NCBI RefSeq assembly: GCF_031834595.1
Contig: NZ_CP115541.1
Location: forward strand, 4,272,501 to 4,336,500
Origin: Stenotrophomonas oahuensis
GTDB taxonomy: Bacteria > Pseudomonadota > Gammaproteobacteria > Xanthomonadales > Xanthomonadaceae
Direction: 5' to 3'
DNA length: 64,000 nt
Shown: positions 27,923-56,362 of the stretch, piece by piece
How the letters are laid out: each line of letters opens with the position of its first letter
How positions within the stretch are numbered: the first letter of the stretch is position 1
Program-made: the position numbers and the translations under genes
Notes under the pieces: model-generated
What the model saw: only the letters and a program-made list of their open reading frames with translations
Databases searched by the model: none
Told to the model about the DNA's origin: nothing

Positions 27923-27994
27923 GCCGAAGTGGCGGAATCGGTAGACGCAGCGGACTCAAAATCCGCCGCCCTTAAAAGCGTGTGGGTTCGAGTC
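27923..27994 (+). pseudogene. Host tRNA-Leu (CAA), 3' end lost at the prophage junction
   Basis: The sequence GCCGAAGTGGCGGAATCGGT starts a typical class II leucine tRNA; the anticodon stem-loop GCGGA-CTCAAAA-TCCGC gives CAA, and a variable arm follows. The T arm reads GTGGGTTCGAGTC, then changes to GGTGGTATTACCCACACCAA instead of the expected CCAC and a CTTCGGC acceptor strand. The gene thus lacks its 3' T-stem strand and acceptor half. A TATACA -10 box lies about 20 bases upstream, so it may still be transcribed. The missing half should lie at the other prophage end. Confidence 0.8.
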
Positions 27995-28034
27995 GGTGGT
28001 ATTACCCACACCAACTCATTGAATCAGAAAGACT
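27975..28034. other. Probable prophage attachment junction (attL/attR)
   Basis: Host tRNA-Leu identity ends at about 27994, and the integrase stop codon is 97 bases further on. A seven-base inverted repeat (GTGTGGG ... CCCACAC) spans the break point. The exact core cannot be defined without the opposite end, which is outside the window. Confidence 0.6.
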
Positions 28035-28045
28035 TTCCGCCAAAA

Positions 28046-28080
28046 AGTGTGCCAAACACAGGCGGATACAACTCCACGAG
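28046..28080 (-). terminator. Possible terminator of the integrase transcript
   Basis: An inverted repeat TCCGCC ... GGCGGA encloses AAAAAGTGTGCCAAACACA just beyond the integrase stop; on the minus strand the inner loop contains a T run. It might instead be an attP arm structure. Confidence 0.35.
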
Positions 28081-28090
28081 TGGAACTATT

Positions 28091-29191
28091 TCAGGACACG
28101 GAAGAGAGCGTGACACGCCTCGCACCGTTCCGCTCTTCCAGCGCTCCGGCCAGATCGAGCAAATCCCCGTCCATGACGTTGGCGTAGCGCTCCGTCATCG
28201 TGACCGACGAGTGCCCCAGCATCCGGCTCACCTTGTAGATCGGGACACCCGACAGGACCAATCGAGACGCGCAGGTGTGCCGCAGGGTATGCAGGGTGGC
28301 GTCCTCAATCTCCAGCTTGCCGCAGACATAGTTCCATCGCCGCAGGACAGCCTGGGCGGTCAGCGGGTGGCTTGGGTGGGTCAGCAGGGTCTCCACGGAT
28401 GCCGCCGCGCGGGTCGTCAGCGGGACCAGCCTGCCCTCCCCTGATTTCGTCTTTCCGTGTCGGAGCCGCAGAGCGACGGCCTTCCCGTCCCGGCGCATGA
28501 CGTTGACCTCAGTCACCTCCCCCAGCGCCTCGCTAATGCGCATGCCGGAGTCCAGCAGCAGGCCCACCATGGCGATCATGTAGGACTGCTCGCGGCCCCA
28601 ATGCTGGAGCGGGTGCGCCCGGAGCCAGTCGAAGATGCGGCGTTCCTCGTCGTCGGTCAGGTAGCGTTCCTTGACGTTGTTCTCGGCCCAATGCGGGAAC
28701 TTGGGGAGCGTCAGGTCGGGGATCGACTCTTCCTTGGCGTAGGTCATGGCCCGGCTGATGGCGGACATGTAGCGGTTCTTGGTGGCCGCAGAGACGAGGG
28801 TCGAGGAATCCTTGCGATTCTCGTTCGTCAGGCCGTCGGCCCAATCGCGGAGCCGCTGGCGGGTGATCTGCGGGATGGTCCAGTGCCCAATCTCGCGGAT
28901 GATCCTGGTGATGCGGGTTTTGATCGACTTCGCGCTGCGCTTGTGCCGCCATTCGGCGTGGTAGACCTCGCGCAGCAGGCTCGCCAGCGTGGTCATTTCC
29001 AGCCCGGAGCCGCGCCGTTCCGACAGAGGGACGGATTCGACCAGTACCTCCTGCATCATGGCGAGGGCCTTCAGCTTGGCCTCTTCCTTGTTGGTGCAGC
29101 CTGTTGAGAGCCGCTTTCGGGAACCGTCAGGCCCCTCAAAGTGCGCCTGCCATACACCGCCTGCGCGGCGCTGCTTCAGTTCCAATGCCAT
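28091..29191 (-). CDS. int: Tyrosine site-specific integrase of the prophage
   Basis: The 366-aa recombinase has an N-terminal arm-binding region, a SAM-like core-binding domain (about residues 65-160) and a C-terminal catalytic domain (about 175-350). The catalytic set is visible: R in LLLDSGMRISEALGE, K in RHGKTKSGEG, H-x-x-R in LHTLRHTCASRLV, H in MLGHSSVTMTERY, and Y in that last segment. Facing the broken tRNA-Leu across about 100 bases, it is the obvious enzyme for integration there. The ATG is one base from the upstream winged-helix gene, so the two are cotranscribed. Confidence 0.95.
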   Translation of the reverse strand: MALELKQRRAGGVWQAHFEGPDGSRKRLSTGCTNKEEAKLKALAMMQEVLVESVPLSERRGSGLEMTTLASLLREVYHAEWRHKRSAKSIKTRITRIIREIGHWTIPQITRQRLRDWADGLTNENRKDSSTLVSAATKNRYMSAISRAMTYAKEESIPDLTLPKFPHWAENNVKERYLTDDEERRIFDWLRAHPLQHWGREQSYMIAMVGLLLDSGMRISEALGEVTEVNVMRRDGKAVALRLRHGKTKSGEGRLVPLTTRAAASVETLLTHPSHPLTAQAVLRRWNYVCGKLEIEDATLHTLRHTCASRLVLSGVPIYKVSRMLGHSSVTMTERYANVMDGDLLDLAGALEERNGARRVTLSSVS

Positions 29192-29192
29192 T

Positions 29193-29498
29193 TCACACTC
29201 CTGTTAGCTTGGCGATGGCCGCACGGCCTGCCTTGGTGAGGCGGCTCAGGCGCAAGCGCCCATCCGCCGGGTCGAGGAAGGTTTCAATGAGGCCCAGACC
29301 TATCGGCCCGAGCCACTTCAGGTAGCGGCTGATGGCCGCAGGGGAGCCGTCGGTCTTCGTTGCGAGGGCTGTTTGATCGGTGCCGGCCTCTCCCGATTGA
29401 GCAATGACCAGCAGCGCCAGTGCTTGTCGCAAGGTCGCATCGGGGCCAAGTAGGTCGATCAACGCACGTACGAGAAGAGCGGACTGCTGGACAGACAT
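29193..29498 (-). CDS. Small winged-helix (MarR-like) phage regulator
   Basis: The 101-aa protein reads MSVQQSALLVRALIDLLGPD and contains a wHTH pattern (TDQTALATKTDGSPAAISRY) followed by a wing with DPADGRLRLSRLTKAGRAAI. It resembles MarR-type single-domain regulators. Directly upstream of int and cotranscribed with it, it could be a lysogeny regulator or directionality factor. No canonical CI/Cro repressor is visible in the window, which makes this the best candidate for a repressor role, by inference. Confidence 0.7.
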   Translation of the reverse strand: MSVQQSALLVRALIDLLGPDATLRQALALLVIAQSGEAGTDQTALATKTDGSPAAISRYLKWLGPIGLGLIETFLDPADGRLRLSRLTKAGRAAIAKLTGV

Positions 29499-29519
29499 AG
29501 GGGTTCCTTTCAGGGGTGG

Positions 29520-29714
29520 TTATCGTCGCGTGAGCGACAGGATGATTCGCCGCCGGAACAGTACCACGGCGACGGTGATATATGCAGAGGTGGAAGCAAC
29601 GGACATGAATGGGGCGACCTCGCCCACAAGAAGCGACTCAACAGCAAACATCAGGGACAATTCCAAGGGGGAGTAATTGGCAGCGCCCGCACGCATCCGG
29701 CGCACTCGCTGCAT
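29520..29714 (-). CDS. Possible small membrane protein
   Basis: The 64-aa frame has one long hydrophobic stretch (LMFAVESLLVGEVAPFMSVA and following) and a basic C-terminus, RRRIILSLTRR. The start is uncertain; an internal ATG at MFAVESLL gives a 43-aa protein. It fits the gap between the promoter at 29806 and the wHTH gene, but coding support is weak. Confidence 0.35.
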   Translation of the reverse strand: MQRVRRMRAGAANYSPLELSLMFAVESLLVGEVAPFMSVASTSAYITVAVVLFRRRIILSLTRR

Positions 29715-29805
29715 TCAATGAGGCGTGTCCCTTCGCCTGTTCGACTATTTGGTGAGCTGCTATCCAGCGGCTTGCATGTAATAGGTTACGGCCGCGTGAA
29801 GCGAA

Positions 29806-29834
29806 ACATTAGTGTCCGTATGTCGAATTTACAA
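29806..29834 (-). promoter_or_regulatory. Candidate promoter for the regulator-integrase genes
   Basis: On the minus strand TTGTAA, a 17-bp spacer and TAATGT lie in an A/T-richer stretch of the otherwise gene-free 29715-29906. It would read into 29714, the wHTH gene and int. Confidence 0.4.
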
Positions 29835-29906
29835 CACACGTCCATTCAGCCATCAGGCCGCACCCGGCGCACTATAAGTGGCCCTGTACTGCCAGCGTGT
29901 AGGCCC

Positions 29907-30050
29907 TCATGCAACCACCTGCATCTGCGACCGGCGGCAGGCCGCAATCGCCGCGCTGTAGGTCGATGCCTGGACAACACGCGTCGTGCCATCGGTCAGG
30001 CGGAATGTGTATTCATTGCCCGGCTTGCGGGTGTAGGAACGGACGGTCAT
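29907..30050 (-). CDS. Small phage early-type protein, 47 aa
   Basis: The sequence MTVRSYTRKPGNEYTFRLTD is followed by GTTRVVQASTYSAAIAACRR, with beta-strands then a helix. The ATG overlaps the stop of the preceding gene (ATGA), supporting translation. It has the same length and layout (strand, strand, Ala-rich helix) as the 47-aa protein at 30878-31021, so the two may be distant paralogues. Function unknown. Confidence 0.6.
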   Translation of the reverse strand: MTVRSYTRKPGNEYTFRLTDGTTRVVQASTYSAAIAACRRSQMQVVA

Positions 30051-30466
30051 CCCATGCGCTCCACGAGGCGGGCGACATGCTCGCCCATGACCTTTGCGGT
30101 AGGCGGCGCGTCCTGTTTCAGCGCCTCGGCAACCCACAAGTGGCCCAGCGGTTCGCAGACCTCGTATGCCCAGCACCCGCCCACGCCGTCCTCACCCACT
30201 GCGGCCCACGCGGCTTGCACCAGCGGCGCACAGGTGGACACCATGTCCTCAATCAACCCGCACTCCCCGCCGCCCTCCGAAAGTACCCCGTAGGTGGACG
30301 CATCCAGCTTCGCCAGCGCCTCGGCGCAGCCCTTCCCGAGATAGGCCACGTCGGTGAGGTCCGGGGCGTTTTCAAGCTCCCTCACGGCGTCCTGCAGGAC
30401 AGCGGCGATGTTGCCCCCGATCACGTCGGCGGCGTTCTTCATGCGTGCAATGAGTTCAGTGTTCAT
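30047..30466 (-). CDS. Phage early-type protein, 139 aa, unknown
   Basis: The protein starts MNTELIARMKNAADVIGGNI, with GGAG before the ATG at 30466. It is acidic and helical, with five cysteines (for example GGGECGLIEDMVSTCAPL and GGCWAYEVCEPLGH). It has no membrane segment or recognised domain. It overlaps the next 47-aa gene by four bases. Confidence 0.65.
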   Translation of the reverse strand: MNTELIARMKNAADVIGGNIAAVLQDAVRELENAPDLTDVAYLGKGCAEALAKLDASTYGVLSEGGGECGLIEDMVSTCAPLVQAAWAAVGEDGVGGCWAYEVCEPLGHLWVAEALKQDAPPTAKVMGEHVARLVERMG

Positions 30467-30618
30467 GGGTGTGTCTCCGATAGACAGACGCGCAGCGCCG
30501 GGCCGCCAGAGGGGCACCGGGCGGGCGCTTAGGGATTGGTAGAGGGTGGCGGCTCAGGGGCCGCGAGCGGGCCGCGTAGGGCCTCGCTCAGAGGGGTGGC
30601 GGCGGTGGCCGCTGGGTA

Positions 30619-30783
30619 TTACAGGAAGAGCTTTGCGAACGCAGTGGCGGCACCAAAGAAGGCCGCGCCCACCATGAAGGGATACCAGCGCGATTCGGCG
30701 TTGATCTTCGTCGTTTCGGCCATCAGCTTGGCAATCTCGGCCTCTACCTTTTGAGCGTCCATGTGCTTCGTTCGGGGTGTCAT
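30619..30783 (-). CDS. Small phage membrane protein, 54 aa
   Basis: The frame reads MTPRTKHMDAQKVEAEIAKL, then an amphipathic helix and one membrane helix (FMVGAAFFGAATAFAKLFL). AAGGA precedes the ATG at 30783; MDAQKV is an alternative start. Short MDxxKxxAEIAKLMAET-type proteins with a single C-terminal helix recur in phage early regions. Function unknown. Confidence 0.65.
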   Translation of the reverse strand: MTPRTKHMDAQKVEAEIAKLMAETTKINAESRWYPFMVGAAFFGAATAFAKLFL

Positions 30784-30877
30784 CGGGTTTCCTTAGTGTA
30801 GCGCTGTCCGCGCTGGGGTTGTGAAGTGGGCTGGCGGTGTCCCTTTCGATGCCTGGGCAAAAAGGGACACGACGAAC

Positions 30878-31021
30878 TCACTTGAGGGGTTCCACCCGGG
30901 TGACGATTGCCCCCGGCTCAGACCAGCGGATGGCCCGGCGGGCGTCCTCTTCGGTGCTTGCGGCCACGTGGCAGGTGTTGGGCTTGCCGGCCCGGGTGGT
31001 GTAGGTGACGGCGTAGGTCAT
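30878..31021 (-). CDS. Small phage early-type protein, 47 aa
   Basis: The product MTYAVTYTTRAGKPNTCHVA continues ASTEEDARRAIRWSEPGAIV and ends VEPLK. Its ATG overlaps the stop of the gene at 31018-31323 (ATGA). Two short strands precede one helix. It may be distantly related to the 47-aa protein at 29907-30050. Function unknown. Confidence 0.6.
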   Translation of the reverse strand: MTYAVTYTTRAGKPNTCHVAASTEEDARRAIRWSEPGAIVTRVEPLK

Positions 31022-31323
31022 GCGCGGCTGCTCCGGAGTGCTTTAGCCACCTTGTGGCCGTTGATGGGTCGGGTCTCGAAATACACCAGCGCATCGCGCA
31101 CCGTGCGGAAACTGTTCGTGCTGCCGAGATACGGCGAGGTGAACCCGTCACCCTCGCGGTACATGTCAATCTTCGGATTCGTGTCCCGGTACTCCGGCAC
31201 GGCCTCAAAGATGCATACCCCGTCGCTTGCGCGGTTGCTGCTGCCGTACCAATCACCGGTCCGGCTTGCAGGGGCTTTAAAGGTGTCGCCACTGATGCGG
31301 CTGCGAAGAGTCGTGGTGCGCAT
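31018..31323 (-). CDS. Phage early-type protein, 101 aa, unknown
   Basis: The protein begins MRTTTLRSRISGDTFKAPAS, with CTGGAGA upstream of the ATG at 31323. It is basic at the N-terminus and aromatic in the middle (VPEYRDTNPKIDMYREGDGF). A tiny 18-codon frame (31323-31379, MPDNADTFDAHRWILENT) ends on its start codon (TGATG) and could be a leader peptide. Function unknown. Confidence 0.6.
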   Translation of the reverse strand: MRTTTLRSRISGDTFKAPASRTGDWYGSSNRASDGVCIFEAVPEYRDTNPKIDMYREGDGFTSPYLGSTNSFRTVRDALVYFETRPINGHKVAKALRSSRA

Positions 31324-31371
31324 CAGGTGTTCTCCAGAATCCAGCGGTGTGCGTCGAAGGTGTCGGCGTTG

Positions 31372-31524
31372 TCAGGCATTGGTGTTGGCCTCTTTGCAGG
31401 TGTCACAGGCATTGCAGCTAAAGCAATAGCGACAGTCGCAGTCGTATCCACCGCAGTCGCAGCAGGTGAACCGTTGGTCACACGTCAAGGTGTGGTAGGG
31501 AATGCTCAGGAGTTCGCAGGCCAC
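31372..31524 (-). CDS. Cysteine-rich 50-aa phage protein
   Basis: Starting at a GTG six bases after the preceding stop, the frame encodes 50 residues of which 11 are cysteine, nine of them within 22 residues (TCCDCGGYDCDCRYCFSC, then NACDTC). The pairwise spacing suggests binding of zinc or another metal rather than disulfides in the cytosol. A GAGG lies about nine bases before the GTG. Gene-to-gene packing on both sides supports it, but there is no recognised family. Confidence 0.55.
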   Translation of the reverse strand: MACELLSIPYHTLTCDQRFTCCDCGGYDCDCRYCFSCNACDTCKEANTNA

Positions 31525-31527
31525 GGC

Positions 31528-31929
31528 TCAATCCTCGATCACGGTCCACATGGTCAGATTCAGAGCGCGAGCGACTGCGTTCAACGCCTCACGTACCGCC
31601 GTCATGCCGTGCCCGTCGATAGGGTCACGCAAGGTCACACCAGCGTTCTGCAAGGCGTACGCGATGGCCGCGCTTCGCTTGCAGTAGCCCCAGCCGGAAG
31701 CAGTGCCCGACCCGCTGCGGTAGTTGTCCGGCGCATGAATCCAGACCGTCGCGTAGACCGCCATTGCCGACTTGCTGCGGCCCATGTAGCAGCGCACCGT
31801 CACCACGTTGCGGAGCTGGCCGTCTACCAGCCCGACAAGGTGCAGCACGTCGGTAAGCTCTTTCTTGTCGCCGTAGTTCGTGCCGGCCTCGATTGCCTTT
31901 GCGCTAAAGGTTGCTTCGTTCTTATTCAT
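31528..31929 (-). CDS. Phage early-type protein, 133 aa, unknown
   Basis: The protein starts MNKNEATFSAKAIEAGTNYG at 31929. A longer frame to 32016 overlaps the small gene upstream and lacks a good ribosome site. It has a mixed alpha/beta composition with a C-terminal helix (GMTAVREALNAVARALNLTM). No motif is recognised. Confidence 0.6.
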   Translation of the reverse strand: MNKNEATFSAKAIEAGTNYGDKKELTDVLHLVGLVDGQLRNVVTVRCYMGRSKSAMAVYATVWIHAPDNYRSGSGTASGWGYCKRSAAIAYALQNAGVTLRDPIDGHGMTAVREALNAVARALNLTMWTVIED

Positions 31930-31954
31930 GGCATTAGTTCCGTTAGTGGAAGGA

Positions 31955-32032
31955 TTAGACGTTAAAGAAGCGAGCCACGGCGCGACCCAAGGTCCACCCG
32001 GTGACACCGCAAGCAAGTAAGACAGCGATCAT
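31955..32032 (-). CDS. Possible 25-aa membrane peptide
   Basis: MIAVLLACGVTGWTLGRAVA followed by RFFNV, with its ATG overlapping the TGA of the upstream gene (ATGA). A single hydrophobic helix with a basic tail. Overlap coupling is the main support. Confidence 0.35.
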   Translation of the reverse strand: MIAVLLACGVTGWTLGRAVARFFNV

Positions 32033-32262
32033 TGGGCCGGCCCGTAAGCGCACATCAGGCCGAAGGTCAGGCACACCGCAGCGGACTCGTTCACGCAGTC
32101 GGCGATCCAGTCATGCCCGGTGGTGCCCGCCTTTTGCAGATACATACCCCACACCTGCGCCTCTTCCTTCGCACAAGTAATCATGTTCCCGGTGCCGTCA
32201 TCCTTACGCGGTCCGTACTGGATAGAGGTGCCGTTGGCGAGCGTCTTAAAGGTGTCCGTCAT
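32029..32262 (-). CDS. Phage early-type protein, 77 aa, unknown
   Basis: The protein begins MTDTFKTLANGTSIQYGPRK and contains three cysteines (ITCAKEE, ADCVNES, LMCAYG). It follows the first early gene by two bases. No domain is recognised. Confidence 0.6.
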   Translation of the reverse strand: MTDTFKTLANGTSIQYGPRKDDGTGNMITCAKEEAQVWGMYLQKAGTTGHDWIADCVNESAAVCLTFGLMCAYGPAQ

Positions 32263-32264
32263 GT

Positions 32265-32450
32265 TCAGTTCTCGATAGCGGTGGAAGTGAATTCGCTGGG
32301 CCGCGAATGGCGCGAGATTGAGTAGCCCTCGCTGGCCGGGAAGGCCCGCCGCAGTTCATCCTCAAGCCCTGCCGTAATGTCGAAGGTCTGACGCTCAGCC
32401 GTGGCGAACAGGTGACGCCCGTTCTTGGCGATGTTGTATGAGACGTACAT
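32265..32450 (-). CDS. First gene of the early operon, 61 aa, unknown
   Basis: MYVSYNIAKNGRHLFATAER begins a small, mixed-charge protein ending HSRPSEFTSTAIEN. GGAGAG precedes the ATG. It is the first gene after the promoter at 32595-32623, in the place of T7 gene 0.3-type host-takeover proteins. There is no visible similarity to Ocr; the function is open. Confidence 0.55.
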   Translation of the reverse strand: MYVSYNIAKNGRHLFATAERQTFDITAGLEDELRRAFPASEGYSISRHSRPSEFTSTAIEN

Positions 32451-32594
32451 TTGTTGCTCTCCGTGGTGATCGTTGATGCGCCCTCATGTGTTCCGAAGGC
32501 GCATCCCCAATCCGTTCGGATGGGTAGCTCTATGTTGGGAAGGAGCGTGGGGCTGTGCCCCGTCCGGTTGGCCTCAGCGCCGCCCGGTGGAAAC

Positions 32595-32623
32595 ACTATC
32601 CTCCGATCCTTCCACTTGTGCAA
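32595..32623 (-). promoter_or_regulatory. Strong sigma-70-type early promoter of the prophage
   Basis: On the minus strand TTGCAC, a 17-bp spacer and GATAGT are directed at the small-gene operon that ends with int. Position and strength parallel the A promoters at the left end of T7. Confidence 0.6.
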
Positions 32624-32643
32624 GCACTTTCGTTGGTGAAAGT
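32615..32643. promoter_or_regulatory. Candidate operator dyads over and upstream of the early -35 box
   Basis: Two inverted repeats abut: CTTG-TG-CAAG at 32615-32624, covering the -35 hexamer, and ACTTTC-GTTGGT-GAAAGT at 32626-32643. A lysogen would need a repressor at this promoter; these dyads are its likeliest sites, by inference. Confidence 0.4.
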
Positions 32644-32715
32644 TAACGATGGTTCAGGAAGCGATTCCCGATCAGGTAGCTGTTACCGGTCTGTAATAGC
32701 ACGCGCGCGTAGAGG

Positions 32716-33128
32716 CATCAGGAGCGCATCAGGCGGGCATCAGGTGGACTCAGGCACCACCGTAGCGGGCACCTTATGTACGGGCCAAGGCGGGGCGCAC
32801 AGCGCGCCTCATGGACACTTCATGTGTGCAGGGTGACAGGCTGGCATCAGGTGTGCCGTGAGTGGGCATCAGGTGTGCATCGGGTGTGGCCTTGGGTGAT
32901 GCCCTGCCCTGTCGAAAAAAAAACAGATAGGCGAGAGAGGACGCGCCAAACGGCGAGGCTTGCCCATGCCCACATCAGGGCCACATCAGGCCACCTCATG
33001 CCACTCAGGGCGCACCACACGTACCCCGAAGGATGCTGCATCCACTGCTAGCACCTGTCGAATCAAGGGGTTAGCGCAATGTGTGCCATCAGGTGTGCCG
33101 CAGGTAGGCGCATCAGGTGGGCATCAGG
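32716..33128. repeat. Array of CATCAGG heptamers, largely in 11-bp phase
   Basis: Exact CATCAGG occurs at 32716, 32727, 32738, 32845, 32867, 32973, 32984, 33087, 33111 and 33122, all on the plus strand. Near-matches fall on the same phase at 32878 (CATCGGG) and 33098 (CCGCAGG). Neighbouring copies are 11 or 22 bp apart within four sub-clusters. An eleventh copy lies at 33386, beyond the tRNA. Confidence 0.85.
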
Positions 33129-33295
33129 CGGCGTAGGGTGCCACCCCGTGCCCCACGAAACGCCTGCGCATGCCAGGGCCATGGGGGTAACTGACCGCCG
33201 ATGACCTATCGAGACCCCTTCGGATTTTTTCAACCAAATCCGCAGGCCCACCCCATGCACACCCAGGTCCACTTCGGGTACACTTGCCGTCCGCT

Positions 33296-33381
33296 GCCGG
33301 TGTGGCGGAATGGTATACGCATCTGACTCAAAATCAGACGGGGGTGACCCCATGGAGGTTCGAGTCCTCTCACCGGCACCA
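33296..33381 (+). tRNA. Intact tRNA-Leu (CAA) carried by the prophage
   Basis: 86 nt with encoded CCA. Acceptor GCCGGTG pairs with CACCGGC; the anticodon stem-loop TCTGA-CTCAAAA-TCAGA gives CAA; a long variable arm GGGGGTGACCCC is followed by T arm GGAGGTTCGAGTCCTCT. It is on the plus strand, against the surrounding phage genes, and its sequence differs clearly from the broken host tRNA-Leu(CAA) at 27.9 kb, so it is not a duplicate of it. Confidence 0.95.
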
Positions 33382-33389
33382 GCTCCATC

Positions 33390-33421
33390 AGGAGTACCTG
33401 AAGTGATCCCCAGGTACTCCT
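33390..33421. terminator. Perfect 10-bp inverted repeat after tRNA-Leu
   Basis: AGGAGTACCT and AGGTACTCCT flank a 12-base loop, nine bases after the tRNA. It could end the tRNA transcript or the opposing late transcript; there is no clear T run, so an RNA-processing or structural role is possible. Confidence 0.45.
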
Positions 33422-33424
33422 CAT

Positions 33425-33498
33425 GTGTTCTCCTTAAGAGACACCCTCATAATACTCTTGACAGTAAATACTTAAGGAGATACTTAAGTATTCTTAAG
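33425..33498. other. A/T-rich spacer with four CTTAAG sites
   Basis: CTTAAG occurs at 33433, 33471, 33483 and 33493, in a 66-bp stretch that also has TTGACA-17-TACTTA on the plus strand. The segments GTGTTCTC and CCTTAAGAGAC recur near 56.85-56.88 kb in the other order. The rest of 33382-33539 holds nothing else I can identify. Confidence 0.4.
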
Positions 33499-33539
33499 GG
33501 GCGCGCGCATGCGCGTGGTACAGAAATGGATCTTCCCTG

Positions 33540-35255
33540 TCAACGACGAAGCCGATGCGTGGTCGCATTGGATCGGGTCTGAGTCCCAGCCCCTCGTCGG
33601 TTGAACCATTCTCCCCACCTACGCTCGTCTTCAGCCCGCCGAATCTCGGCCTCGGCCTTCTCAGCGTCTACCTTAAGTGCCTCTCGGAACCACCGAACCC
33701 CGTGTGCCAGGGCGTCGATACGGTCGTCGTGTCGCAGGCACCCACGGTCCTTGGTGATGCGCGTGAGCTGGTACAGCAGGCTGTACTTCTGCTCCCTCTC
33801 GTCGCCCTTGCAGGCATCCATGTCTGCCTTTGCGGCCCTTGCGTCCACGATCAGGCGATGCTGGTTCAGCAGAGGCTCCAGGTCATCAATGATCCGGCGC
33901 TCCTTCTGGCCGCTCGCACGGACCTCTTCAAGAGTGCATGGGTAGTTCGCAGCCAGGACAGGCTCCAGCAGAGCCGAGAACATGCCGTCGCCGAAGTTGG
34001 ATTCGACAAGGATATGGTTCACCCGGTGGCGTCGGGCCACCTCGGCCAGACCCTCCAGGCACTGCCGGTCGTAACCGGAGCGGAACCCGCCCCAGGACTT
34101 CAGGAACACCTGCCCTTCAAGCATGTAGAGGACCACCCAGGCGGTCTCGTCTCCACCTCGGCCGGACGGGTCCACGATCAGGAGGCGACCTTGGTACTCC
34201 CGACGCGTCTCTGAGGTGTGCAGCGGGCGGTACATGCGGTCACCCGCGAAGCCCAGGTTGGGCATTTCCTCGCCGTAGGCAAGGCGCGGATCAGAGGCCC
34301 AGGCGAACTTCACCGGAGCGTCGTCGTCGTCCACGTCGGTGACGATCAGGTCGGCAGTCTTCAGCGGGTAGCGGTCAGCGTCCGCCAGGGACGTGTCGAG
34401 CATGAACTGAAGGGCGAAGCCGGAGCGACCGTAGGACGCCTCACGCTCAGCCAGGTCTAGATCGGTGAACCGGGTGGGTTCGACGGTGCGCCCAACGCGG
34501 CTCGGGTCGGCCTGCAGGTCGGCCAGAATGTCCGGCGCAAGGGCACCTTCAAACTTCCCGGGGTCTTCCGGGTAGCGAACGGGCCAGATGCGACAGTCAT
34601 ATCCGCGCTCGCGGACCTTCTTGTAGATCGACTGCTCGGTCTGAGGCGTCCCCAGGTAGATGATATCGAAGCCCTCGGGCACCACCAGGGCGTCGTACTC
34701 CTTAATCAGCTCGGCCAGCTTCTCGCGCATGGTCTCGGTAACCGAGTTCTTCGGCACCTCCACGTCGTCGGAGATAAGGATGGTGGCGCGGCCACCGGTG
34801 AGCTGGCCCGTGATGCCCACGCAGGAGACCGAAGGCGTCACTGCGGCGTCCGACGGGCCAACGTCGAATGCCTGGATGCTGTCACGCTGCCCTGCCCTCG
34901 CCTGGAGGAACTGGAGCTGCGGGACTTCTTGGATCAGGCGCTTGATGAAGACGGCGTTCTCAAGGGCCTTGCCCTCGTTCGCCGAGACGATCTTGATGCG
35001 CTCGTTGGGATTCCTGTAGAGACGCCACAGGGCGTAGGCACAGGTGATCCACGTCTTCGCAGCGCCTCGCCACGCCTGGATCATGCGGCGCTTGGGGCCG
35101 GTCGCGACGTACTGCGCAATTGCGTACTGGCGCTTGGTCGGCTCAGGCAGCTTCAGGTGCCGCCACAGGACGAACAGGAACACCCTGAAGTCGTCGTGCA
35201 TGCGCCGTTCGGACTCGCAGGTTACCCACTCGGGATAGGAAATAGTTTCTGACAC
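33540..35255 (-). CDS. Large terminase subunit (T7 gp19-like)
   Basis: The 571-aa packaging motor matches T7 gp19 (586 aa) throughout. FRVFLFVLWRHLKLPEPTK corresponds to the gp19 N-terminus; the ATPase has a Walker A-like QAWRGAAKTWITCAY and Walker B ILISDDVEV; the nuclease has VDPSGRGGDETAW, VESNFGDGMF and HDDRIDALAHGV. I prefer a GTG start at 35255 (VSETISYPEW), although no strong ribosome site is seen; an ATG at codon 19 of that frame or a longer start at 35387 are alternatives. Confidence 0.93.
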   Translation of the reverse strand: MSETISYPEWVTCESERRMHDDFRVFLFVLWRHLKLPEPTKRQYAIAQYVATGPKRRMIQAWRGAAKTWITCAYALWRLYRNPNERIKIVSANEGKALENAVFIKRLIQEVPQLQFLQARAGQRDSIQAFDVGPSDAAVTPSVSCVGITGQLTGGRATILISDDVEVPKNSVTETMREKLAELIKEYDALVVPEGFDIIYLGTPQTEQSIYKKVRERGYDCRIWPVRYPEDPGKFEGALAPDILADLQADPSRVGRTVEPTRFTDLDLAEREASYGRSGFALQFMLDTSLADADRYPLKTADLIVTDVDDDDAPVKFAWASDPRLAYGEEMPNLGFAGDRMYRPLHTSETRREYQGRLLIVDPSGRGGDETAWVVLYMLEGQVFLKSWGGFRSGYDRQCLEGLAEVARRHRVNHILVESNFGDGMFSALLEPVLAANYPCTLEEVRASGQKERRIIDDLEPLLNQHRLIVDARAAKADMDACKGDEREQKYSLLYQLTRITKDRGCLRHDDRIDALAHGVRWFREALKVDAEKAEAEIRRAEDERRWGEWFNRRGAGTQTRSNATTHRLRR

Positions 35256-35406
35256 GGAAGTAATGCCCAGCAAGGCCCCTCCCGCGCTCGTGGCGGGCCT
35301 CTCAGGGGCGTGGTGATATGGACGTAGCGGGTACGTGTGTAGAGGCGCTGTACGCGCGCTCAGGAGCTTGAGAGAATGGGCACCCAATGAACCTTGAGGT
35401 CACCCA

Positions 35407-35733
35407 ATGTCGTCCTTCGTAGTAGTCCCGCTGGCTATCGCAGCGGTATTCGCCCGCTTCATTTACGTGGCGAAGAAGGACCAAAGGTTGCTGAAGGTGT
35501 TCGCAGGTGCTGTCAAGGGGTGTGGGGACGACGCCCTGCATTTCGCCCTGGAGCGGGCGACTCGGTTCCCTAAGTCTCCGCTGGAGACCTCAGAGTGGAA
35601 AGTGCTTCAGGAGGCCGTGACGCCGCTGTACGTCGAGCGCACCATGGCGCAGTACGGAGACCCGCTGGCGACGTATGACGCGTTATGCAGGCTCCGTGCG
35701 CGGATGCACAAGGTGCAGCTCAAGGTTCAGTGA
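35407..35733 (+). CDS. Plus-strand phage gene against the late operon; membrane-anchored, 108 aa
   Basis: The frame begins MSSFVVVPLAIAAVFARFIY, an N-terminal membrane helix, followed by a soluble helical part with balanced composition (KDQRLLKVFAGAVKGCGDDA). TTGAGGT lies about six bases before the ATG. It fills exactly the gap between the two terminase genes, overlaps the small terminase stop by seven bases and is the only credible plus-strand protein gene in the phage part. Independent expression in the lysogen, for example for superinfection exclusion, is a reasonable guess. Confidence 0.6.
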   Translation: MSSFVVVPLAIAAVFARFIYVAKKDQRLLKVFAGAVKGCGDDALHFALERATRFPKSPLETSEWKVLQEAVTPLYVERTMAQYGDPLATYDALCRLRARMHKVQLKVQ

Positions 35734-35975
35734 GGGACGCCTGAAACCATGTCCTCGGGGCCGAAGTCCGGCAGGTGCGGCGCGAGTTCGTCTGCCACCT
35801 TGCGGGCGCGAACAGGCGAGTTGATATCGTTGTCCTTCAGCAGCTTGATGGCCTGGGCCAGCAGCGCCGGAGGCACCGGCTCACCGCGATCACGGTAGCC
35901 CTCAATCTCTTCTTGAACGATCTGAAACGTCAGGGCGTGCAGCGCGTCGGCTGCTTCTTCACTGGCGCGAGCCAT
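35727..35975 (-). CDS. Small terminase subunit (T7 gp18-like)
   Basis: The 82-aa protein (MARASEEAADALHALTFQIV) is helical and acidic, with the C-terminal DINSPVRARKVADELAPHLP expected of T7 gp18 (89 aa). It lies two genes after the fibres and one before the large terminase, as in T7. It probably recognises concatemer junctions for packaging. It overlaps the upstream small membrane gene by 17 bases. Confidence 0.75.
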   Translation of the reverse strand: MARASEEAADALHALTFQIVQEEIEGYRDRGEPVPPALLAQAIKLLKDNDINSPVRARKVADELAPHLPDFGPEDMVSGVPH

Positions 35976-36213
35976 GCTTCACCTCGTCGTTGAATCGGGT
36001 CTCCAGTACGGCCATGTGCTTGTTGGCCTCGGAAAGCTGGTCCGATAGGTTGTCGATCTTGTGCAGCGTCTCTTCGTGACGTGCGAGCTGTGCGTCCTGC
36101 AATGCGTCCTTGGTCTTTCCTTCGACCAGGGTAGATACGGCCCACAGGGAACCGGCGGTGGCGAAGCCGAAGATCAGCTTCGTCAGCAATGCGTTTGCAG
36201 TAAGTTGGGTCAT
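35959..36213 (-). CDS. Membrane-anchored coiled-coil protein, possible i-spanin or holin accessory
   Basis: The 84-aa protein has one N-terminal membrane helix (LIFGFATAGSLWAVSTLV) followed by a charged coiled coil (EETLHKIDNLSDQLSEANKH). This plan fits an inner-membrane spanin or a haemolysin XhlA-like protein. T7 has its class II holin (17.5) and Rz (18.5) in this part of the genome, but a clearer Rz/Rz1 pair lies at 59 kb here. Confidence 0.6.
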   Translation of the reverse strand: MTQLTANALLTKLIFGFATAGSLWAVSTLVEGKTKDALQDAQLARHEETLHKIDNLSDQLSEANKHMAVLETRFNDEVKHGSRQ

Positions 36214-36265
36214 CAGGGTTTCTCAGGAGGGCGAGAGGGAACCGAAGTTCCCCCTCAAGTGCCCC

Positions 36266-36424
36266 TTAGCGGACCTCGGTCTGCTTCGGAACGTCGCGCG
36301 GGTCGCCAGCCGAGCCAGGGGCTGCGGTGGAAGCCGAGGCGGTCTTGCGCTTCGACAGGTGACGCACGAGGAAGACGACAGCAGCGACGGTGACGAGGCC
36401 AGCGATTACGGAGAAGGTGGTCAT
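36266..36424 (-). CDS. Small single-helix membrane protein (gp17.5-like position)
   Basis: The 52-aa protein reads MTTFSVIAGLVTVAAVVFLV followed by a basic, Ala/Ser-rich tail, RHLSKRKTASASTAAPG. One membrane helix and a charged tail directly after the fibre genes is where T7 encodes its holin 17.5. The stop at 36266 and start at 36424 leave ten bases to the upstream gene. Confidence 0.55.
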   Translation of the reverse strand: MTTFSVIAGLVTVAAVVFLVRHLSKRKTASASTAAPGSAGDPRDVPKQTEVR

Positions 36425-36433
36425 TGAGTGTCC

Positions 36434-36886
36434 TTAGAGGGTGTTGTAGTAGTTGTAGGAGGTGGAGGTGTAGACAACCACGGCGTAGCCGCTGGAGTTG
36501 TCGGTGACGACGCACTGGAGCGAGACCGAACCACCACCGTTGATGGAACAGGTGGCGTAGACGGTGCAGCCAGAAGCGTTCGCGTTGGCGAGGGAGACGG
36601 CGGTGACGCCGGACGAACCGGTGACGGACCATGCGTAGCTGTAACTACCGGAGCCGCCGGAGACCGCAGCCGACACACCGATGGCGGTGGCGATGGTGCG
36701 CGGGGTACTGGAGTTGCCATTGTTCCGCGTGAAGTTCCCGCCGGTAGCACTTGCGGTCATCCCGTAGTACACCGGAACCCACACACCCCCACGTGCAACG
36801 CGTACCGTCTTCACGGTGGCTGCGTTGGCACGGAGGTAGCGGGCCGGATTCCACGCGCCGTTGCGGGCGACGTAGATTTGAGCCAT
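36434..36886 (-). CDS. Probable virion-associated beta-rich protein
   Basis: The 150-aa protein starts MAQIYVARNGAWNPARYLRA and continues with a Ser/Gly-rich immunoglobulin-like stretch (VSGGSGSYSYAWSVTGSSGV, CSINGGGSVSLQCVV). Ig-like decoration modules of this type sit on many phage tails. Its ATG overlaps the stop of the 72-aa gene upstream (ATGA). It is probably an accessory fibre or receptor-binding component. Confidence 0.6.
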   Translation of the reverse strand: MAQIYVARNGAWNPARYLRANAATVKTVRVARGGVWVPVYYGMTASATGGNFTRNNGNSSTPRTIATAIGVSAAVSGGSGSYSYAWSVTGSSGVTAVSLANANASGCTVYATCSINGGGSVSLQCVVTDNSSGYAVVVYTSTSYNYYNTL

Positions 36887-37104
36887 CAGCTCACCAGGGT
36901 CAGCGCCAGCTCGTAGGTCGCGCCCAGGGTGTAACCTGCGGCTTCCTCGGCGGTGATGTTCAGGGCAATGTTGGACTGCCCGTAGGCAATCGTGCCGGGC
37001 GTTGCAAGTTCGCCGGTGTTGGAGAACATCAGAGTGTGAGTGCGATCCGTTGGAACGCTGGTCTCACTGACATTGCTTGCGATGTTCTTGAGCTTGAACT
37101 TCAT
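36886..37104 (-). CDS. Small probable virion protein, 72 aa
   Basis: MKFKLKNIASNVSETSVPTD begins a beta-type protein ending GATYELALTLVS. It is coupled to the Ig-like gene downstream and lies nine bases after the second fibre gene. It may be a fibre chaperone or decoration protein; the family is not recognised. Confidence 0.55.
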   Translation of the reverse strand: MKFKLKNIASNVSETSVPTDRTHTLMFSNTGELATPGTIAYGQSNIALNITAEEAAGYTLGATYELALTLVS

Positions 37105-37113
37105 GTCGATCCT

Positions 37114-39267
37114 TTAAATTTGAATCCAGATGCGACCTTCGATGTAACCGGGGTCGGCGGAAGAGATAATGAGGTTGTTGTCGTCCCACACGGTTCGCCA
37201 TGCGTGGACCACAGTGCCGTTACCGTGGATGCCTCGGAAGTACATCGCAGAGCCGGAGTTGTTGTCTGTGTTGTAGGGCATCAGAAGCTGCGTGGTCGTA
37301 TCGCCGCCGCCGCCGCTGCTCACAAGCATCTGACCGTAGGAGCCGCCGCCGGGAAGGTTGGTGGAGTTCGATCCATCGCCCATGCGGTACAGGCCCGACT
37401 TGAGGCACTGATTCATGTTGCCGTACCAGGGGCCGGTGCCGAAGTTTCCGGTGTGCCACACATAGCCCGCCGAGGTGGTCCCCAGGCCGGAGGTGTGCGT
37501 GCCGTCGGCGTACAAGCCAGCGGTGTCCCAACCGATCCGCGCACCCGCGTTGCCGAACTTGATGAATCCAGCGGCGCGATTGGCGAGGGACTGGATGCCG
37601 AGCGTGTGGTTGATATTCACATCGATCAACATGGAGTCGTCGCCGATCTGAAGAGACCCACCACCGTTTCCATTCTTGATGTAGGCGTCACCACTGATGC
37701 CGACAGTGAAAATGTCGCCGACAGTGTTGGCCCACACGCGATACTGATTGCCGGTGGCATAGGTGGACCACGTTTGGCCGTAGTCGCGCGCAACGATGTT
37801 GTAGCTGGCACTCGTACCTTCGACTTGGACGCCGCCCGTGGAGGTCGCCTTGAAGACGGTCTTCAGGTCACTCCCACGCATACCCATCACGCCCAGCGTT
37901 CGGTTGACGTAGAAGTCGAGGTAGCCGGTGTGGTCAGTTGCGGACGGCCAGGAGCGGACGAGGGTGTCACCGTTCCACGAACCGACGAAACCCTCGCCCT
38001 GGGAGATAGCTGCGCCCGGCTGACGGAACTCAACTAGCGGATACGCGTGAGCGATGTATGCCTGGGCATTCCGCATGTTGAGCGATCCGTCCGTCGTGAT
38101 CGACCCGCCGAAGTAAGCGCCGTACTGGTTCCAGAAGGAGCCATCAGTCAGGAGCGAACAATAGCCAGCGAGCGTGCCGTCCGCCTTGTTCTTCGCCCAA
38201 ATCATTCCGTCACTGGCGATGTTCCAGTACAAGGAGCCTTTCGTGTTCCCGTTGTAGTCGAGGAAGCGCAGCACCGGGTTACTCGTGGACGTGTTCGGCT
38301 GAATCATCAGCGCATCAGAGATAACCGGGTCCACGCGCAGGGCGTAGTTGTTCGGTTCAAACACCTGGGCCTTGGTGGCAGAGCTGGCGGCAGCGGTAGC
38401 GGAACCTGCGGCTGCGCTTGCGCTACCTGCGGCTGCAACTGCGTCAGCGTGGACGCCAGCCTCGGATGCCTTGGCTGCTGCTGCGGAGGCCGCTGCGTTG
38501 GTCTCGGAGGTCTTGGCGTTGACTTCAGAGGACTTCGCGTTCGTCTCGGAGGTCTTCGCGTTGGAAGCCGAGGTGGCGGCGCTGTTTTCTGAGGTCTTCG
38601 CTGCGTTCTGCGAAGCCAGGGCTGCGGAGGCACTTGAGGATGCCTGAGAAGCGCTTGAGGCTGCACTGGAGGCCGACGCGGATGCAGCGGATGCTGACCC
38701 TGCGGCTGCACGCTCGGAAGCGGCTGCGGCCTGCTCCGACGCCAGGGCGGCACTAGCGGAACCTTGGGCTTCGGCAACCGCTTCGTTGAGGGTGTCCAGG
38801 GAGGCCAGAGCCTCGGATGCCGACTGTGCGGCTGCGACGGCGCTGGATGACGCCGCCTCGCTGTAGGACTTGGCATTCGCCGCGTGCGTGCCGGCAGTGT
38901 CGGCATACATTTGAGCGAGGTCACGCGCAGCCTTCGACGCATTGGCGAAGTCGTTGGCCGCGTCCTGGGCCAGCTTGGCGTTGGTCACGTTCGTTACGGC
39001 GGCTTCGGCGGATGCCTGGGCGGCATCGGCGAACGAAGAGGCCGAGTTGACCTCCCCGTCCACGCGGGATGCCTCAAGGGCCGGGCAAGGGACCATGAAG
39101 GTGTTGCCCAGGTGGTCCGTGAGGGGGAACATGCCGTCGCCGTTGGGACCACCCGTCGCGGTGCCGCCGAGCCACGCCTGGAGCTGGGACGTGTAGGTAC
39201 GCCAGCGCTCCATGAGGGCCGTCATGTCGGACGCAAGCTGCGCCGGGGTTGGGGTGGTAGTGGTCAT
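37114..39267 (-). CDS. Tail fibre protein with long Ala/Ser coiled-coil shaft
   Basis: The 717-aa protein has a short head (about residues 1-80), a long Ala/Ser/Thr/Asn repeat shaft (about 85-310) with heptad-like units such as AKTSETNAKSSEVNAKTSET, then a C-terminal receptor-binding region (RFLDYNGNTKGSLYWNIASD; ends GYIEGRIWIQI). Such shafts form trimeric rods. It shares an ATGA junction with the gp17-like fibre upstream, which lacks a comparable tip, so the two may form one jointed fibre. Host range would depend on this protein. Confidence 0.85.
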   Translation of the reverse strand: MTTTTPTPAQLASDMTALMERWRTYTSQLQAWLGGTATGGPNGDGMFPLTDHLGNTFMVPCPALEASRVDGEVNSASSFADAAQASAEAAVTNVTNAKLAQDAANDFANASKAARDLAQMYADTAGTHAANAKSYSEAASSSAVAAAQSASEALASLDTLNEAVAEAQGSASAALASEQAAAASERAAAGSASAASASASSAASSASQASSSASAALASQNAAKTSENSAATSASNAKTSETNAKSSEVNAKTSETNAAASAAAAKASEAGVHADAVAAAGSASAAAGSATAAASSATKAQVFEPNNYALRVDPVISDALMIQPNTSTSNPVLRFLDYNGNTKGSLYWNIASDGMIWAKNKADGTLAGYCSLLTDGSFWNQYGAYFGGSITTDGSLNMRNAQAYIAHAYPLVEFRQPGAAISQGEGFVGSWNGDTLVRSWPSATDHTGYLDFYVNRTLGVMGMRGSDLKTVFKATSTGGVQVEGTSASYNIVARDYGQTWSTYATGNQYRVWANTVGDIFTVGISGDAYIKNGNGGGSLQIGDDSMLIDVNINHTLGIQSLANRAAGFIKFGNAGARIGWDTAGLYADGTHTSGLGTTSAGYVWHTGNFGTGPWYGNMNQCLKSGLYRMGDGSNSTNLPGGGSYGQMLVSSGGGGDTTTQLLMPYNTDNNSGSAMYFRGIHGNGTVVHAWRTVWDDNNLIISSADPGYIEGRIWIQI

Positions 39268-41243
39268 TACTGTTCCGTAGAGACGACGGTGAGCTTCGCC
39301 GTGGTGGATTCGCTGGTGATCGCGCCTCCCACGGTGGACATGGAGAGCTGCGACAGGCGAACGGTGTAGACGTAGTTGTTGGACGCACCTGCGGTGTCAA
39401 CGAAGGTGAAGCTTCCGTTGATCGAACCCCAGGCATCGGACGCACCGTCGGAGACGTTGCTGATGGACCAGTTGCCGTAGACGTACTGCTGGGCTACGAG
39501 AACGTCGCCAGCGCCGTTGAGGTTTCGATACAGGGACACAAGCGCAGAGTTCTGTCCGCCGCCGTTAAAGCCGGTGTTCGGCACCCTCTGATTGACGACG
39601 TGACGGGACCGCGTGTAGGAACACACGATGGTCTTTGCACGCCCATTGGATGCGAAGGGACCAACGACAGCGTAGGTGTCACCAGCGATGGACGTAGAGG
39701 AAGCGGCGTTGTAGAGGACACCTGCGGACAGCGTGCCGCCGAAGTAGGCGGAACCGTCCATGCCCACGTAGGTGATCGCGTTACCCTTCGTGCATGAGCT
39801 AATGGCCATCTTCGGGCCGAACCACTCGATCAGGTCGCGGTTTGCACCGAAGCCGACACCGAGAACCTTCATGAATGCGCCCGTGTCAAGCACGATGCGT
39901 CCGTTGGTGGAGTTCAAAGCCCACTCGGCACTGATGGCACCGCCGGTGATCTTGTCCACCGTCAGGTTGCGAATGTAGGCGTTGTTCATGTAGACGCCGT
40001 TGGCGTCCACGGCGAACGGGACAATGCCCGGATAGCCCGGCGAGACGATGGCGAAGTGATCGGCCAGAATGTTGAACGTCGAGGTTGCCCCGTTGTTCCA
40101 CAGACCGAAGCCTGCGACATAGCCGTTCACGTCCGTCTTCAGCATGTACTGCGCGGACAGGCCATTGGCGACACTCGCGGTCTGCTGGATGCTCGCCTCG
40201 TTCTTACCTACTCGCGTCTGGAGGGTGGAGATATCGGACGCCAGCGCGGAGTCCTTACCGGCCTGGACCGTCACCTGCTGGTCGAACAGAGCCTTGTTCT
40301 CCCCGACGGTCGTCAGGATGCCGTCGAGGCGCGTACCCAGGGCACCGTCTTCATCAGCGCGGGCCTTCGCCTCTTGCGTAATGAGCGCCTGCACGGGACC
40401 GTCAGGGTCCGTCAGGGATGCCACGACGTTATCCACCCGAGTCGCCATCGCTGAGTTCTCGTCGGTGCGCGTGGTGGCTTCCTGGGCGATTGCGGCGGTG
40501 TTCTCGCCGGTCTTCACCTGCATTGCCGTCAGGCGGTCGCCCAAGGACTCGTCAGGGGAAACCTTCAGCGTCCCGAGGTTGGCAATGAAGCCGGTGCCGT
40601 CAGCGCTCTTCGCGCCGATCAGGTCGATGGTCTCAACGATGCCGGTGTCGCCCTCAACGCGTGCGTTGGCTTCCTGCTGGATCAGCGTGGCAACGCCGCC
40701 GTCAGGTGCCGTCAGGGCGTCGATGATGGACTGGAGGCTGCCCAGGTCGATCTGCGTGGAGAGGATCGTGTTTGCGTTCGTGTCGATATCCACGATGCGA
40801 GCCTGAAGTTCCTTCAGCTCTTCGCTCGATAGAATCTGCTCAATCACCTTGTCGATGACCGGGCCTGCCTCTGGAGCGCCCGACTGGAGGACCAAGCCGT
40901 CCAGTGCGCCGTTGACCAGGGCTTCGTAATAGTCACGGGTTTCCTCGGTGGCGTAGAGCGCCTGGAGGAACGCCATGTTCAGCTCGTCCTGCGTGAGGAC
41001 CGAACCGTTGTGGAAGGCCACCAGGGCCTTGCTCACAGGAGTCTGCCGGATAATCTCCAGCACGCCTTTACCCGGCGGATGGTAGAACTCGATGTTCGCC
41101 GAGTCCCGCCAGTAGTAGTCCAGACCCTGACGCTTGATGCGACGGTTGTACGCCACGGTGACGTGGGTGTTGGAAATGTAGGGGAACGGGACGGAGAACT
41201 GGAAGTCCCCCGCCTCGATAGCGAGTGCTACTCGTGAGGTCAT
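39267..41243 (-). CDS. T7 gp17-like tail fibre with lambda J-type (DUF1983-like) middle
   Basis: The 658-aa protein starts with the T7 fibre attachment domain (about residues 1-150; FQFSVPFPYISNTHVTVAYN; VLTQDELNMAFLQALYATEE). The middle repeats trimeric-type segments (TRVDNVVASLTDPDGPVQAL). Residues about 355-430 (YMLKTDVNGYVAGFGLWNNG; STFNILADHFAIV) match the central fibre module of lambda gpJ. A beta-rich C-terminus follows. It is therefore a podoviral adaptor fused to a siphoviral-type fibre module. It starts 45 bases after the gp16-like gene, beyond a terminator. Confidence 0.88.
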   Translation of the reverse strand: MTSRVALAIEAGDFQFSVPFPYISNTHVTVAYNRRIKRQGLDYYWRDSANIEFYHPPGKGVLEIIRQTPVSKALVAFHNGSVLTQDELNMAFLQALYATEETRDYYEALVNGALDGLVLQSGAPEAGPVIDKVIEQILSSEELKELQARIVDIDTNANTILSTQIDLGSLQSIIDALTAPDGGVATLIQQEANARVEGDTGIVETIDLIGAKSADGTGFIANLGTLKVSPDESLGDRLTAMQVKTGENTAAIAQEATTRTDENSAMATRVDNVVASLTDPDGPVQALITQEAKARADEDGALGTRLDGILTTVGENKALFDQQVTVQAGKDSALASDISTLQTRVGKNEASIQQTASVANGLSAQYMLKTDVNGYVAGFGLWNNGATSTFNILADHFAIVSPGYPGIVPFAVDANGVYMNNAYIRNLTVDKITGGAISAEWALNSTNGRIVLDTGAFMKVLGVGFGANRDLIEWFGPKMAISSCTKGNAITYVGMDGSAYFGGTLSAGVLYNAASSTSIAGDTYAVVGPFASNGRAKTIVCSYTRSRHVVNQRVPNTGFNGGGQNSALVSLYRNLNGAGDVLVAQQYVYGNWSISNVSDGASDAWGSINGSFTFVDTAGASNNYVYTVRLSQLSMSTVGGAITSESTTAKLTVVSTEQ

Positions 41244-41264
41244 GGGGTGTCCGTATGAATGATT

Positions 41265-41285
41265 AAGGGGGCCGTAGCCCCCTTT
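41265..41285 (-). terminator. Hairpin between internal virion and fibre genes
   Basis: AAGGGGGC-CGTA-GCCCCCTT is a near-perfect stem. On the minus strand it follows the gp16 stop and precedes TTAATC, so it should attenuate transcription into the fibre genes; on the plus strand it is followed by TTTCGG. Confidence 0.7.
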
Positions 41286-41288
41286 CGG

Positions 41289-45956: not shown

Positions 45957-45971
45957 AAGGGCCTCTGTAGG

Positions 45972-48110: not shown

Positions 48111-48119
48111 GAGGTTTCC

Positions 48120-51237: not shown

Positions 51238-51238
51238 G

Positions 51239-51829: not shown

Positions 51830-51844
51830 GAGGTGTTCCTAAGT

Positions 51845-56247: not shown

Positions 56248-56259
56248 GGGCGCGTCTCG

Positions 56260-56318: not shown

Positions 56319-56362
56319 GTTGCGATGCCGTCCGTGTGCTGAAGCTACGGACGATCTGTTGC

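Follow-up and report, generated by a model that had tools for sequence, protein, structure and literature searches.

Host tRNA-Leu(CAA) gene at the prophage junctions

We analyzed a 64,000-nucleotide (nt) stretch of the Stenotrophomonas oahuensis chromosome, hereafter the window (G000:C1:4272501-4336500), in which a transfer RNA (tRNA) gene of the host, tRNA-Leu(CAA), is split beside the integrase gene of a prophage. The genome comprises 4.68 Mb in two contigs and is rated 100% complete. The 5' part of the gene reaches into the T arm (Table 1), and the sequence past position 27994 departs from the intact 87-nt gene. The missing gene end, GATCGAGTCCCACCTTCGGCACCA, lies at the far end of the prophage, 44.1 kb away and outside the window (G000:C1:4344587-4344610). 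Comparison of the left and right attachment sites (attL and attR) revealed the heptamer TCGAGTC at both, the right copy at G000:C1:4344589-4344595. The bases flanking it on either side differ between the two junctions, which sets the core at 7 bp. Because attL and attR have only these 7 bp in common, neither junction rebuilds the tRNA gene, and ARAGORN called zero tRNAs at attL (L039) and at attR (L012). Rejoining the flanks in silico at TCGAGTC produced one complete tRNA-Leu(CAA) gene, the bacterial attachment site (attB), and no tRNA was called at the reciprocal joint, the phage attachment site (attP). The locus therefore combines an attB that overlaps a host tRNA gene, a short common core and the absence of a predicted functional tRNA at attL and attR. 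In classical integration at a tRNA gene, the 3' end lost from the gene is supplied by attP and the gene is thereby restored; here attP shares 7 bp, and integration splits the gene because attP has the core only and not the remaining gene.

A hybrid T arm at attL (GTGTGGG with CCCACAC downstream) was considered as a source of tRNA and rejected, as it has no acceptor partner and ARAGORN calls nothing there. Directly upstream of the split gene stand four tandem Ala(GGC)-Glu(TTC) tRNA pairs (window positions 25315-26405); such pairs are also found near tRNA-Leu(CAA) in several relatives.

With up to three mismatches, the first 71 nt of the gene were matched in 42 of 91 genomes of the genus, this one counted. 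ARAGORN scanning covered the locus in 30 of these 42 genomes and found an intact tRNA-Leu(CAA) in all 29 relatives; the remaining 12 genomes have full-length gene matches.

The prophage carries the only intact tRNA-Leu(CAA) gene found

A complete tRNA-Leu gene with the same CAA anticodon as the split host gene lies within the prophage. The two sequences are identical in 63 of 87 aligned columns. Surveying the whole genome with RF00005 returned 64 tRNA matches at E <= 0.001, among which the leucine genes were UAG, CAG (three copies), UAA, GAG and the prophage CAA gene, with no further Leu(CAA) among the remaining host matches. A CAA-specific pattern run over the whole genome met two places, the split gene and the prophage gene. 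The prophage gene is thus the sole intact CAA gene found, and the split gene is the host's single one.

The initial annotation of the stretch 27923..33381 had proposed, from the letters of this DNA, that the phage breaks the host gene without rebuilding it and brings another, dissimilar one. The truncation at nt 72 of 87 with no tRNA at either junction, the 3' half at the opposite prophage end, where it had suggested looking, and the confinement of the only intact CAA gene to the prophage all bear this out. It had also named two findings that would tell against it, a second intact chromosomal tRNA-Leu(CAA) and an unoccupied relative with the same truncation; the former was looked for genome-wide and the latter in the 29 scanned loci, and neither was found. 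Both tRNA features do lie in that stretch, but the prophage is far longer, and its right end falls beyond the window.

Right behind the prophage tRNA is a perfect hairpin that could serve as a 3' end signal; no T run follows it, and a consensus scan gave no plus-strand terminator at this position. The prophage encodes further tRNAs on the minus strand at window positions 56363-56808, namely tRNA-Met, tRNA-Asn and a tRNA-Ile called with the anticodon AAT. This anticodon is unusual for tRNA-Ile in bacteria, and the gene has the lowest score of the 64 tRNA matches, 47.1 bits.

The element is a temperate T7-like phage

Sixteen prophage proteins and one host protein were searched against phrog and Pfam profiles. 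The matches include phrog_414, PF00940, PF22530, PF21265 and others, and yield a single-subunit RNA polymerase together with T7-type replication and packaging genes: terminase, tail, major head and head-tail adaptor/connector proteins, DNA polymerase, primase/helicase and single-strand binding protein. The RNA polymerase gene (phrog_414, E 1.1e-249) is on the minus strand (L011:5493-7949), and the right end of the prophage falls shortly after its start. Because a tyrosine integrase accompanies this T7-type gene set, we assign the element to the temperate T7-like phages, which are classed as Autographiviridae in the records consulted; its attP lies between the integrase and RNA polymerase genes.

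Table 1. Positions, in window coordinates, of the split gene, the prophage and its genes.
Feature	Position	Strand	Evidence or remark
Host tRNA-Leu(CAA), 5' part (nt 1-72 of 87)	27923..27994	+	100% match to the intact gene; stops in the T arm at attL
attL core TCGAGTC (7 bp), left prophage end	27988..27994	+	Comparison of both junctions
Prophage body in the window	27988..64000		Total 44.1 kb; right end 8.1 kb past the window
Tyrosine integrase, 366 aa	28091..29191	-	phrog_1, E 1.2e-49; PF00589, E 3.2e-21
Small regulator-like protein, upstream of the integrase	29193..29498	-	phrog_9665 (transcription regulation), E 5.8e-10
Prophage tRNA-Leu(CAA), complete	33296..33381	+	ARAGORN; RF00005, 61.4 bits; CCA encoded; type II body
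Perfect 11-bp hairpin, possible 3' end signal	33390..33421	+	Read from the sequence
Terminase large subunit, T7 type	33540..35387	-	PF22530, E 6.3e-37; phrog_38

Alignment of 20 integrases, this one included, revealed that its catalytic residues R218, H301, R304, H327 and Y336 are invariant. The small regulator-like protein has no Pfam match. A single-sequence query with the integrase found no close relatives in genomes or viral contigs; alignment queries found some. One integrase relative (P0008, 43% identity) bears the name Stenotrophomonas maltophilia. At E <= 1e-25 the integrase was detected in one of 395 genomes of the family, its own, among the matches listed, at most five of which were scored per genome.

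Related phages target other leucine tRNA genes

The same design is observed in phages with related integrases. The clearest is an IMG/VR record (G452; integrase 38% identical) that contains both junctions. In it a host tRNA-Leu(UAG) gene is split in the anticodon loop, the rejoined halves form an intact tRNA-Leu(UAG), and attP yields no tRNA. Its junctions have AGATTTAGGTTC, a 12-bp core, in common, and its own tRNA-Leu(UAG) is like the target in 66 of 87 columns. In a second record (G455), whose identifier suggests an isolate, a host 5' half is followed by phage sequence and a Leu(UAG) is carried; the half is identical to the Leu(UAG) of the present host over its first 45 nt, and its other junction has been trimmed away. 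In G456 and G457 the integrase gene is followed by GGATTTAGGTT, a core-only attP, and both also carry Leu(UAG), while G466 has AGACTTAAAATCTG as its core after the integrase gene and carries Leu(UAA). The Mesorhizobium phage Lo5R7ANS, which is T7-like, has a tRNA-Leu(UAG) followed 17 nt behind by GATTTAGGTTCC; genes annotated as RtcB and as methyltransferase/transcriptional activator flank this tRNA (L387 2362-4551). In phage LUZ100, a tRNA-Leu(UAA) stands beside the integrase gene (L130 2658-2743), and CAGACTTAAAA, which resembles the Leu(UAA) anticodon loop, lies between the integrase and RNA polymerase genes (L130 3914-3924). LUZ100 may thus use tRNA-dependent lysogeny.

Other relatives are built differently or are less informative. 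The contrasting design is represented by G458 and G460, which have a tRNA 3' half after the integrase gene and in whose records RF00005 finds zero tRNAs. Relatives at non-leucine tRNA genes exist as well, such as G465, which adjoins a whole tRNA-Arg. A 5' half of tRNA-Leu(CAA) or Leu(UAG) follows the integrase gene in G461 (L125 1132-1219) and G471 (L145, shortly after 1163), and these phages perhaps rebuild the target gene from its 5' side. No tRNA was found in the fetched stretches of S2B and jiawei, which are parts of their genomes; Pasto carries Leu(UAA), with no core found; G469 and G472 have Leu tRNAs, none of which resolved to an attP; and the records of G453 and G454 do not contain the host junctions.

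Two forms of tRNA-Leu(CAA) occupy one locus in the genus

Two forms of tRNA-Leu(CAA) occur at a single locus in the genus; the split gene is of the form that we call type I, and the prophage gene belongs with type II. At E <= 1e-14, type I was matched in 321 of the 395 genomes of the family, covering 49 of 54 genera, at 97-100% identity among the matches listed. Type II was matched in 70 of the 395, comprising 18 in the genus at 95-100% (the phage copy counted) and 52 outside it at 79-89%; 19 of these 52 also match the type I query and may have a single intermediate gene or two genes each. Among the 91 genus genomes, type I at E <= 1e-30 is present in 43, including the split gene and a gene split over contig ends in G016, and type II in 47, one of which is the phage copy, leaving 46 host genomes. 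Type I or II was matched in 89 of the 91, again with the split gene and G016 counted. At these cut-offs none of the 91 besides the present genome has both types, and two, G070 (76% complete) and G086 (99% complete), have neither type and no CAA pattern. Partial type I-like pieces are found in G033 and G079 (80-83%).

We considered that type II genes might lie elsewhere in the genome and rejected this, as their flanks show the same locus as type I. At all 34 type II loci scanned, 637 to 1377 columns of the left flank of the present locus align at 71-76%. Of 29 type I loci, 17 align with this flank over 1358 to 1392 columns at 76-79%, 9 align only briefly and 3 not at all; for the right flank, matches were seen at four loci. 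In the type II genomes G011, G023 and G069 the gene is preceded by TTTACACTACGCGGCCA, which is almost the type I motif TATACACTACGCGGCCA. A similar terminator (AAAGGCCAGG...CCTGGCCTTT or close) follows the gene, judged by eye, in 9 of the 14 type II loci and 3 of the 10 type I loci inspected. In a midpoint-rooted flank tree (636 columns, 52 genomes: 34 type II and 18 type I with the present one, the 12 non-aligning type I loci excluded), the change between types falls on one branch with support 100/99, one change compared with about 15 in shuffles. From the same-locus flanks and the single branch in the tree, it appears that this core tRNA gene had its body swapped in place once, in one clade.

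With type II host genes the phage tRNA shares 95% identity (82 of 86 nt), and with type I 71-72%. The four differing nucleotides amount to two compensated stem pairs, and the T-stem pair in the phage's form also occurs in some type II-like genes of other genera. The phage variant did not appear in IMG/VR, whose 14 type II matches all have the host form, nor in named phage records, where two matches, at 75-79%, were the only ones. Counted by eye, as many changes are required for capture as for donation, so the tRNA itself does not set the direction of transfer. Host type II may have come from a phage, a phage may have captured it from a type II host, or both may have a third source in common; capture is the plainest of these. 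It is conceivable, though we regard it as unlikely, that tRNA-dependent lysogeny rewrote the host tRNA set, with type I giving way in a single in-place exchange to a type II body still carried by a T7-like phage that targets the same gene. If true, bacteria would be able to trade core tRNA genes through lysogeny by phages that bring a replacement tRNA. The swap in half the genus toward a phage-like form makes it possible to test whether phages drive the turnover of host tRNA genes.

Interpretation and alternatives

We propose that this element very probably practises tRNA-dependent lysogeny, in which the phage splits the single tRNA-Leu(CAA) gene of its host without rebuilding it and brings its own complete replacement. 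The tyrosine integrase would recombine at the 7-bp core that lies within the T arm of the host gene, and the prophage tRNA would take the place of the lost one in the lysogen. Integration of a phage lacking the tRNA should then be lethal or costly, and clean excision would restore the host gene, which loss of the prophage by deletion would not. Since the body of the phage tRNA is so unlike the target, it would offer little homology for recombination with the split gene. We estimated the demand for this tRNA from UUG counts in the longest non-overlapping open reading frames (ORFs) of at least 150 aa in this region, which were mechanically chosen and are unverified as genes. In the 26 host ORFs, UUG accounts for 99 of 9764 codons (10.1 per 1000); it is rarer in the prophage, with 64 of 11231 codons in 24 ORFs (5.7 per 1000). 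At about 10 UUG per 1000 host codons, loss of the CAA tRNA would touch many genes; this frequency and the type I or II matches in nearly all genomes of the genus argue that the loss should carry some cost.

How far the lysogen depends on the prophage for decoding UUG, the addiction-like maintenance that the initial annotation had proposed, is less certain. The phage tRNA might compensate a mild cost only, with tRNA-Leu(UAA) reading UUG well enough, in which case the anatomy would be the same with no addiction; we consider this quite possible, if on balance doubtful. In other bacteria tRNA-Leu(UAA) reads UUG by wobble, and leuX (CAA) of E. coli is dispensable. As the tRNA-Leu(UAA) of the present host is intact and may decode UUG in the same way, strict dependence is only proposed. 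The near-complete genome G086, which seems to lack both forms, likewise indicates that tRNA-Leu(CAA) may not be strictly required. The presence of type I or a near form in 321 of the 395 family genomes, the frequency of UUG, and the agreement of carried anticodon and target in those related phages that could be resolved all favor dependence. Also weighing against our proposal, a scan ahead of the prophage tRNA revealed no sigma-70-like promoter, although TACACT begins 17 nt upstream, and the comparison of cores with carried anticodons gave a mixed result. In this comparison, 15 regions downstream of integrase genes were matched to 63 host tRNA calls with 41 anticodons, CAA being represented only by the rejoined site and a few calls being doubled where stretches overlap. 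Seven phages that carry a Leu tRNA and have no tRNA half after the integrase gene, the present one included, were scored. The best of the 41 anticodons was the carried one in four of them (G452, G456, G457 and G466); with a chance expectation of 1 in 41 each, four of seven corresponds to about 1 in 100,000, assuming independence. The match failed in the present phage, whose core is only 7 bp, in G462, and in LUZ100, which was scored against the tRNAs of the present host rather than those of a Pseudomonas. Moreover, the match lengths of the four successes were reached by 5, 2, 11 and 5 of 30 Markov shuffles, and the cores had already been inspected by eye before scoring. The present case and G452 stand on both junctions, independently of these odds.

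That the phage tRNA serves lytic growth, by meeting codon demand or by resisting tRNA-cutting defences, and matches the anticodon of the split gene by chance is very improbable. The prophage does have tRNA-Met, -Asn and -Ile genes too, and tRNA genes are present in many lytic phages, with something like the host tRNA-Leu in 193 phage records. However, the lower UUG frequency in the prophage than in the host tells against such a role, and the carried anticodon fits the target or core in G452, G455, G456, G457 and G466 as well. Decay or misassembly of the locus, with the gene broken by some other cause, could be suspected because a single lysogen of this phage was found among the integrase matches listed for the 395 family genomes. 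We regard it as extremely unlikely given the completeness of the two-contig assembly, the clean reciprocal junctions, the intact integrase, the intact attB on rejoining, and the second example with both junctions (G452).

Comparison with known systems

Prophages that rebuild their target are found at the same tRNA-Leu(CAA) gene in the same bacterial group. They differ from the present element in having an attP with the 3' half of the gene from the anticodon on, and because their attP brings this half they leave the gene whole. Second 3'-half copies of tRNA-Leu(CAA) are present in G007, G030 and G047. Judged by eye, the 27 IMG/VR matches to the type I 3' end (L360-L386) include about 7 with a complete gene and about 10 in which a 3' half follows phage sequence; the gene is complete in each of the 14 type II matches (L346-L359).

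Several T7-like phages share features with this element. LUZ100, P-SSP7 and S-TIP37 are described, in the portions of the reports available, as having a T7-like genome with an integrase and a tRNA-Leu next to the integrase gene or as attB. The tRNA of LUZ100 is read there as recruited by imprecise excision (PMC10134795), and the cyanophages P-SSP7 and S-TIP37 are reported to integrate without stable lysogeny (PMC8776855). The initial annotation had pointed to P-SSP7, correctly as to the tRNA-Leu match next to its integrase gene; a replacement tRNA is not described in the available part of that report. The lysogeny proposed here offers a simple account of the tRNA-Leu genes found near the integrase gene in several temperate T7-like phages. 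Among the papers retrieved on T7-like temperate prophages of Stenotrophomonas, titles and opening lines of abstracts gave none on this case.

Substitution of an inactivated host tRNA by a prophage tRNA is described for Sinorhizobium meliloti prophages in the accessible text of PMC11476347, and that of PMC12429752 attributes it to prophages similar to Lo5R7ANS. The present prophage resembles these in its proposed replacement of an inactivated host tRNA, a likeness drawn from their description, and differs from them in that they belong to Alphaproteobacteria. tRNA-dependent lysogeny itself was described in 2024 by Guerrero-Bustamante and Hatfull for the mycobacteriophages Fionnbharth, Gaia and others (PMC10865867), and further literature touches on it (PMC13015707). 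According to the sections available of the 2024 report, Gaia uses tRNA-Leu-CAA with an 8-bp core (Table 2 therein), one possible case lies outside Actinobacteria (Lj965), and a wider look is urged. As far as those sections go, the present element has in common with Fionnbharth and Gaia a tyrosine integrase, an attB in a host tRNA gene, a short core (about 10 bp there), a target gene that is not rebuilt and a phage tRNA of the same isotype. It differs in phage family and host phylum and in its 7-bp core, and the need for the phage tRNA, proven by deletion there, is only proposed here. The mechanism is therefore already known; what is new is its occurrence in a T7-like phage of a Xanthomonadaceae-type host, along with relatives that use Leu(UAG) and probably others that do so with Leu(UAA). 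The discovery made in actinobacteriophages is thereby extended to a T7-like prophage whose two junctions were both read in a complete Xanthomonadaceae-type genome, and to related integrases that do the same at different leucine tRNA genes.

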